Assembly (NCBI GenBank): GCA_017429505.1
Contig: JAFROW010000005.1
Span: 62,001-126,000 of the forward strand
Length of the DNA: 64,000 nt
Direction: 5' to 3'
From: Clostridia bacterium
GTDB lineage: Bacteria > Bacillota > Clostridia > TANB77 > CAG-508
This document shows, one piece after another, positions 57,242-57,744 of the stretch. The position numbers and the translations under genes were made by a program. The first letter of the stretch is position 1; each line of letters opens with the position of its first letter. Under the pieces are notes generated by a model. The model was not told where the DNA came from and did no database searches. It saw only the letters and a program-made list of their open reading frames with translations.

Positions 57242-57317
57242 GGGCTATTAGCTCAGGTGGTAGAGCACTTGACTTTTAATCAAGTTGTCCCGCGTTCGAG
57301 TCGCGGATAGCTCACCA
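57242..57317 (+). tRNA. tRNA-Lys(TTT)
   Basis: A full 76-nt cloverleaf with CCA. Acceptor GGGCTAT pairs with ATAGCTC (one wobble); anticodon loop CTTTTAA gives TTT. First member of a three-tRNA cluster. Confidence 0.96.
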
Positions 57318-57348
57318 ATTTTTCGAATACCTTAAATGGTATTCATAT

Positions 57349-57423
57349 GGCCCCTTGGTCAAGCGGTTAAGACATCGCCCTTTCACGGCGGAGACATGGG
57401 TTCGATTCCCGTAGGGGTCACCA
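57349..57423 (+). tRNA. tRNA-Glu(TTC)
   Basis: A full 75-nt cloverleaf with CCA. The stem ATCGCC... CTTTCAC gives anticodon TTC; the T-arm ATGGG-TTCGATT-CCCGT is standard. Second member of the cluster. Confidence 0.95.
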
Positions 57424-57432
57424 ATTTAATAC

Positions 57433-57744
57433 GCCACTTTAGCTCAGCTGGTAGAGCAACTGACTTGTGGGATAGATAAACATTAGTTTATTTTGAACTA
57501 TCTTGCACCTTTATAGGGAAACCTATAAAGTGGACATCGCTAATTCGGGGAAGACTAAGTATTTATATATGTTAATCCCGAGCTAGAAAATTTATTTTCG
57601 AGTGTAGAGACTTTATACGATGTGCCTAAGGTTTAATACTATGGCAAAGAGAAAGTCCAGACCGCAAACATATTTAATATGGCAATGAAAATTGTAGTGG
57701 TATGAATCAGTAGGTCGTCCGTTCAAATCGGACAAGTGGCTCCA
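57433..57744 (+). tRNA. tRNA-Thr(TGT) interrupted by a group I intron
   Basis: Exon 1 (57433-57468, 36 nt) ends exactly with the anticodon TGT; exon 2 (57705-57744, 40 nt) starts AATCAGT. Joined, they give a perfect 76-nt tRNA: acceptor GCCACTT / AAGTGGC, D-arm GCTCAGCTGGTAGAGC, anticodon stem ACTGA / TCAGT with loop CTTGTAA, T-arm, and TCCA end. The intron of 236 nt lies between positions 36 and 37. No other tRNA-Thr is present in the window, and the cell needs splicing to read ACA codons if this is the only UGU species. It is the last of the three-tRNA cluster. Confidence 0.95.
57469..57704 (+). other. Group IC3 self-splicing intron
   Basis: P1: 57466-57475 (TGT-GGGATAG) with 57498-57507 (CTATCTT-GCA), ten base pairs, with a U-G wobble at the 5' splice site; GCA is the internal guide pairing with the anticodon. 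P2: 57508-57533 with a GAAA loop. P3: ACATCG/CGATGT. P4: CGGG (57546) / CCCG (57577). P6: GAAAA/TTTTC. P7: GACTTT (57609) / AAAGTC (57652), in GTGTAGAGAC and AAGTCCAG contexts. P8 carries CCTAAG and TATGG, the 11-nt GAAA receptor. P9 has a CAAT-GAAA-ATTG hairpin. The last base is G. It has no open reading frame for a homing enzyme. Pattern matches the Azoarcus tRNA-Ile intron. Confidence 0.95.

Follow-up and report, generated by a model that had tools for sequence, protein, structure and literature searches.

Group I introns of subgroup IC3 are defined by a short P5 without P5abc and by two tetraloop contacts, L2-P8 and L9-P5. The intron of the Azoarcus tRNA-Ile(CAU) has a small core without an ORF, a U•G pair at the 5′ splice site and a final G, and I-Ssp6803I, the endonuclease of the cyanobacterial tRNA-fMet intron, is a PD-(D/E)XK enzyme. 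The IC3 class and the crystal structure of the Azoarcus intron are described in a 2014 review, which, in its accessible parts, places phage introns ‘to date’ in protein genes only (PMC3984707), and the lack of P5 a-d in IC3 is likewise noted in the accessible text of PMC11835236. According to the available portions of three further reports, bacterial tRNA group I introns occur in tRNA-fMet and tRNA-Ile2 (PMC8450103), tRNA group I introns are found in cyanobacteria and in alpha- and beta-proteobacteria (PMC4033280), and the hosts are tRNAs for Leu, fMet, Ile and Arg, with short inserts claimed in Arg, Gly and Lys (PMC5733544); the hosts listed in the original prediction, tRNA-Leu(UAA), tRNA-Ile(CAU), tRNA-Arg(CCU) and tRNA-fMet, are consistent with these three. 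A wider occurrence of group I introns in tRNAs is hinted at earlier: in the accessible text of PMC8172020, some CPR tRNAs have group I introns that are hard to detect, with isotypes and sites unnamed. Similarly, the group I introns of tmRNA, as described in the accessible parts of PMC11915505, are missed by standard tools, have few endonuclease ORFs, occupy several sub-sites and lie in the T-loop. In the accessible parts of the largely open-access literature searched, we met neither tRNA-Thr nor tRNA-Tyr nor tRNA-Asn as the host of a bacterial group I intron; four other papers (PMC8155191, PMC4177764, PMC3888941 and PMC5418858) had no bearing on the tRNA host question.

We find that the group I intron carried by a tRNA-Thr(UGU) gene in the window (the whole 64,000-nucleotide stretch of DNA that was analysed, from a gut-type Clostridia genome) is real and very probably works, and that its host tRNA is one for which we found no such intron in print. 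With introns allowed, ARAGORN calls tRNA-Thr(tgt) at positions 57433–57744 and places an insert of 236 nt behind position 36, and it reads the joined exons, 76 nt in all, as an uninterrupted tRNA-Thr(UGU), in keeping with the perfect 76-nt tRNA claimed in the original prediction. The gene, its intron and its neighbours comprise the following features:

57242–57423, + strand: tRNA-Lys(UUU) and tRNA-Glu(UUC), neighbouring genes, both uninterrupted
57433–57468, + strand: 5′ exon of tRNA-Thr(UGU), 36 nt, its 3′ end being the anticodon UGU
57469–57704, + strand: group I (IC3-type) intron, 236 nt, last base G, without an ORF
57466–57507, + strand: P1, in which the anticodon UGU and the intron start (57466–57475) pair with 57498–57507; guide GCA at the end, U36•G at the splice site
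Directly 5′ of the guide GCA, + strand: UU, the P10 partner
57509–57530, + strand: P2 with a GAAA loop (L2)
57534–57623, + strand: P3 (57534–57539 with 57618–57623), enclosing P4 (57545–57550 with 57576–57581), P5 and P6
57609–57657, + strand: P7 (57609–57614 with 57652–57657), the guanosine-binding helix by analogy
57624–57645, + strand: P8 with the 11-nt tetraloop receptor CCUAAG..UAUGG
57661–57701, + strand: P9, P9a and P9b, with GAAA as the loop of P9b; the upper P9a pairs hold in 9/25 and 3/25 aligned introns
57705–57744, + strand: 3′ exon of tRNA-Thr(UGU), 40 nt, CCA encoded

The core helices P3, P4, P6, P7 and P8 occur in group I order, with P3 and P7 pseudoknotted. The elements claimed for the intron (GCA guide, U•G at the 5′ site, P3 to P9, GAAA L2, P8 receptor and final G) are all present, and an alignment of 25 Thr introns (A2, 25 of 30) preserves them while showing compensatory changes; structure, covariation and relatives all point to a group I intron at 36/37 of tRNA-Thr(UGU), as originally assigned. 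The intron has the short P5 and the L2-P8 contact of IC3, while the L9-P5 contact is judged by sequence alone. We rejected a protein-spliced tRNA intron of the archaeal or eukaryotic kind, which is short, has a bulge-helix-bulge and lies mostly at 37/38; the insert is 236 nt long, lies at 36/37 and has a group I core.

Conservation of the structure was examined in two alignments. The first (A1) consists of 27 Thr, Tyr and Asn cores, chosen from the 46 that were left after 4 of 50 introns (L055, L057, L063 and L078) were dropped on the core motif. In A1, the proposed helices are paired in 92.7% of 965 cells compared to 22.0–44.7% in slid versions, an excess that follows in part from the structure having been drawn on the window sequence. 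Changes on both sides of a pair occur in 114 cells versus 38.2 in shuffles; counted by pair, they affect 17, which does not stand out from the shuffles (15.3; 108/500 as high). Double changes affect 4/6 pairs of P3, and P7 is invariant in these 27 cores. Among the 25 Thr introns of A2, pair types that differ on both sides are present in P1, P2, P3, P5, P6a, P8, P9, P9a and P9b and absent from P4, P6 and P7. These three helices are nearly invariant, and thus draw their support from position and conservation rather than from covariation: one P4 pair goes from GC to UA, two P7 pairs are each broken in one sequence, and one P7 base is altered in the relative L057. All 25 Thr introns have the U•G pair at the 5′ site, a G as the last base and two P10 pairs.

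The L2 loop and the P8 receptor switch together. GUGA-type loops prefer CU:AG. Among the matches listed from public contigs (described below), 61 of 118 placed introns have a CCUAA..UAUGG-like P8, and L2 is GAAA in 53 of these by script, with GGAAA seen by eye in the other 8. The 29 Tyr introns with a CU:AG helix in P8 have L2 loops of GUGA (21), GUAA (4), GCAA (3) and GGAA (1), and none has GAAA. P8 is of neither kind in 17/118 (GAAA 13, GUGA 1, and 3 Arg introns) and is not readable in 11/118.

By the established chemistry of group I introns, a guanosine bound in P7 would attack after U36, and the freed U36 would then attack after the final G, joining the exons. We are highly confident that this is a group I (IC3-type) intron predicted to splice itself from the only tRNA-Thr(UGU) found, as would its sister introns in tRNA-Tyr and tRNA-Asn, and that, judging from the distribution, it belongs to a mobile family as a copy without an ORF. 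It is fairly unlikely that the intron is real but unable to splice unaided, such that a host protein is needed, as for some group I introns. The helices are rich in A and U, and self-splicing of the Thr intron is a prediction, which leaves room for such a protein; however, both GAAA-receptor contacts and the compact size favour unaided splicing, and what we take to be a close resemblance to self-splicing IC3 introns also counts against the need for one. Moreover, a helper would be added to the main mechanism, which is kept.

Standard tools perform poorly on this gene. In the window, it was missed both by ARAGORN without the intron option and by RF00005. RF00028, which the original prediction had proposed as a check, stayed below its gathering score of 50, a threshold set by a curator rather than a trait of the structure, in the full window; on a 701-nt stretch it matched 57479–57679 with 39.0 bits (E 2.1e-8). 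The match therefore exists but lies under the cut-off, so that default tools overlook both the intron and the tRNA. Over the bacterium's own genome, the single match to RF00028 was at chance level (E 0.51) and the model recovered none of the three introns, and at E 0.001 or better it had no match for the relatives L062, L063, L126, L136, L124 and L092, whose group I identity consequently rests on the common core. Searches with DNA and with our own model replaced RF00028 for finding relatives; this model (R1) scores 150.2 bits at 57531–57668, the window sequence being among its own inputs. ARAGORN -i reported no tRNA on 20 windows shuffled by 2-mers, and on the real window it reported the tRNA-Thr gene and one false Lys-Glu chimera (57242–57423), so that ARAGORN -i alone is no proof. 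The Lys-Glu fusion is a caution for automatic surveys that use the intron mode. On manual reading, we rejected the labels that ARAGORN gave to relatives (Tyr with i39, Leu, Ile, Phe and Asp; Ile for Tritonibacter), and its placement of introns on all exon joins was too permissive and was replaced by exon motifs.

The original prediction had also suggested a search for the same intron in related genomes, and at least 43 of 195 genomes of the family carry the interrupted Thr gene, with the intron at the same nucleotide (G142 and G155 are partial matches). By manual reading, the carriers span 13 of 39 genera. The exact intact (empty) junction is found in at least 59 family genomes, at least 58 of them outside the 43 carriers, and a congener, G066, has an exact empty site. 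The Lys-Glu-Thr gene order is kept in relatives, and tRNA-Glu adjoins the interrupted Thr gene in 28 of 30 loci, the other two of which begin at a contig edge. Model R1 detected introns in 129/385 genomes of the order and in 2/398 genomes sampled phylum-wide, among them the own genome, under stricter filters with which weak matches are lost. The other match in the phylum (G713, L261) scores 67.7 bits with RF00028, above the Rfam cut-off. Its host, read manually, is a tRNA with a CAU anticodon, either the classic Ile site or Met.

In public genome contigs, a core pattern hit at least 117 stretches with at least 120 matches. Among the matches listed, 118 of 120 sit in the anticodon loops of five tRNAs, which exon motifs (both in 100, the 3′ one alone in 18) place at 36/37 of Thr (56), at 35/36 of Tyr (41), Asn (15) and Lys(CUU) (3), and at 34/35 of Arg(UCU) (3); the two unplaced matches are on contigs that break off 33 and 38 nt past the core. 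A G directly precedes the 3′ exon in 118/118 readable cases among these. By record title, the hosts of the matches listed are mostly uncultured Clostridia; Bacilli are also represented, as are Proteobacteria with 13 loci, each in Thr, and Omnitrophica with 3 in Arg; MAG titles may be misbinned, perhaps in the alphaproteobacterial-labelled Lys case L170. The Omnitrophica introns (L124, L142 and L185) are apparently in tRNA-Arg(UCU) at 34/35. Those at 35/36 of tRNA-Lys(CUU) (L126, L176 and L170) have the guide GGAG and a four-base P10. By manual reading, the 1.26-Mb replicon of Tritonibacter mobilis F1926 bears a Thr(UGU) intron at 36/37 (NZ_CP015231.1, 65221–65550, L268), which scores 34.1 bits with RF00028 and 76.1 bits with R1. 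This strain is a cultured marine alphaproteobacterium, and its intron-bearing tRNA-Thr(UGU) is unannotated. More than 1200 plasmid records, most of them from enterobacteria, share a stretch of ∼110 nt resembling the group I core; among the matches listed, identity is 77–79% and no annotation lies beneath it.

We compared the guide pairing of 107 introns with the five tRNAs, a result that holds partly by construction since the guide was located with site-specific motifs. Thr, Tyr and Asn introns average 3 or more contiguous pairs with the 5′ exon of each of these three tRNAs and 1 pair with Lys or Arg 5′ exons, and Lys introns form 4.0 pairs with their own 5′ exon. On the 3′ side, the numbers of pairs are 4.0 for Asn, 4.3 for Lys, 2.2 for Thr and 2.3 for Tyr, with four P10 pairs in 12/12 Asn introns. 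The three Arg introns go against the scheme, with only 2.0 and 0.7 pairs with their assigned exons, and the Arg site assignment is thus less sure. The common 5′ guide suggests that movement among tRNA-Thr, tRNA-Tyr and tRNA-Asn would be easy; from the distribution, the mobile family would enter U-G-U anticodon loops via the common GCA guide, the route being homing, as endonuclease ORFs in relatives suggest, and perhaps reverse splicing.

No endonuclease ORF was found in the window's 236-nt Thr intron; relatives have several. The Thr intron of a Bacilli MAG (L136) has an open HNH-like ORF (HNH E 0.0036, below the Pfam cut-off), which is shortened or broken in Thr introns L195, L196 and L198 of Bacilli MAGs. 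Two Bacilli Tyr introns (L105 and L151) have a PDDEXK_5 ORF (E 6.2e-17 and 1.5e-16), for which the nearest PDB sequence is 2ost, at E 0.12 only. In three Bacilli loci (L195, L198 and L151), adjoining Thr and Tyr genes are both interrupted, and the core regions of the two introns are alike in 144/158, 137/158 and 135/160 columns, with different endonuclease content. Among viral contigs, 32 (L199–L230), several of which look like duplicates, have the core pattern, with 33 matches. We assigned 22 of the 33, 9 by ARAGORN and 13 by eye, to tRNA genes for Tyr (6), Asn (4), Thr (2), Lys(UUU) (4) and Leu(UAA) (6); 3 others are without tRNA arms and 8 are in neither group. The matches in L215, L223 and L229 are apparently in a protein gene. 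The viral introns often lie within long tRNA arrays, a locus having up to 28 further tRNAs, and 10 frames near the introns include HNH types (4, 2 above the Pfam cut-off), PDDEXK_5 (1), GIY-YIG (1, below the cut-off) and other or no Pfam matches (4).

A tree was built from 111 of 123 candidates (the 120 matches listed and 3 from the own genome), 10 being without a full core or unparsed and 2 identical. The sites are strongly clustered on it, with only 5 changes of the site label, as would be expected from purely vertical descent with many losses and no movement between tRNA genes or species. We nevertheless consider such descent quite improbable: the introns have a patchy distribution, both inside genera and between classes, the neighbouring Thr and Tyr genes of the three Bacilli loci have near-identical intron bodies, relatives have endonuclease ORFs and phage tRNA genes have copies. 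In addition, a single Thr clade is rejected (P = 0.008), a comparison chosen after viewing the tree. A second invasion of the Tyr site had looked likely on the tree, and we set it aside as unsupported, since a single Tyr clade is not rejected (P = 0.605). Returning to a mobile family, we put forward tentatively a broader possibility: that one roaming ribozyme family enters any U-G-U anticodon loop via a single GCA guide, travels in large phages with endonuclease-armed copies in tRNA arrays, and may have left entire gut lineages reliant on RNA catalysis for reading ACA, Tyr and Asn codons.

The own genome has two sister introns, both at 35/36 and within the anticodon, in tRNA-Tyr(GUA) on contig 14 (L062, 846–1089) and in tRNA-Asn(GUU) on contig 3 (L063, 690–944). 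Both are located beyond the window, and neither they nor the wider family figured in the original prediction. The interrupted tRNA-Asn gene comes after a 5S rRNA gene. A tRNA search of this genome gave 30 matches, with only GGU and CGU as Thr anticodons and with no Tyr, Asn, Ala or Ile(GAU); because Ala and Ile(GAU) are missing too, this list is incomplete. The original prediction had named a separate intact tRNA-Thr(UGU) gene as evidence against it, and we found no such junction in the assembly at up to 2 mismatches, nor intact Tyr or Asn junctions at up to 3. In 27 mechanically picked ORFs of the window (≥250 aa), ACA accounts for 583 of 810 Thr codons, and, being the main Thr codon, it makes tRNA-Thr(UGU) needed. 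ACA, Tyr and Asn codons together make up 2255/15329 (14.7%) of the codons in these ORFs, and the decoding of about 1 in 7 codons would likely depend on self-removing RNAs.

If instead the intron were decayed in a dead tRNA gene, another, unseen tRNA-Thr(UGU) would do the work. The assembly, in 14 contigs, is 96% complete, so an overlooked intact gene is possible, and an intact-looking Thr(UGU) accompanies the intron in 3/43 carriers (divergent in G084 and G131, exact in G155). This explanation is nonetheless very improbable, since conservation with compensatory changes extends over the exons and the core, 40/43 carriers have no detected intact junction (≤2 mismatches) and ACA is dominant among Thr codons. 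An assembly artefact or chimera is barely credible: the carriers are nearly all metagenome assemblies, but the interrupted gene recurs in the 43 or more family assemblies, beside tRNA-Glu wherever the contig extends that far, and a named strain, T. mobilis F1926, has an intron at the same site.

A working intron in the Thr gene, with its relatives, adds tRNA-Thr, tRNA-Tyr and tRNA-Asn to the hosts of bacterial tRNA group I introns, and a single genome has all three interrupted. The introns explain why such genomes would look deficient under default tRNA annotation; because default tools skip such introns, the mobile family has been largely unseen. The common guide and the exact empty sites make spread to new tRNA genes directly testable, and T. 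mobilis is a cultured organism suited to testing the Thr intron. The copies in phage tRNA genes contradict the protein-genes-only statement of 2014, as worded in the accessible text (PMC3984707).

The introns resemble those of tmRNA, as far as the accessible text describes them (PMC11915505), in having structural-RNA hosts overlooked by standard tools, few endonuclease ORFs and several sub-sites, but they lie in the tRNA anticodon loop rather than the T-loop of tmRNA. With the introns of CPR tRNAs, in the available account (PMC8172020), they share a group I identity, a tRNA host and difficulty of detection. Like the cyanobacterial tRNA-fMet intron with I-Ssp6803I, the Bacilli Tyr relatives have a PDDEXK_5 ORF, although the tRNA is another one and the window intron is without an ORF. 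The bacterial tRNA introns covered in the accessible parts of PMC4033280 and PMC5733544 are alike in occupying the anticodon loop of a cell-essential tRNA, whereas the tRNA, guide and lineage differ here, and introns in tRNA-Leu(UAA) were seen in six phage contigs. Finally, the IC3 introns of tRNA-Ile(CAU) (Azoarcus) and tRNA-Arg(CCU) have in common with the Thr intron an anticodon-loop host, a small ORF-less core, the U•G pair and the final G, but here the host is tRNA-Thr(UGU), joined by tRNA-Tyr and tRNA-Asn in the same genome, and the lineage is Clostridia.
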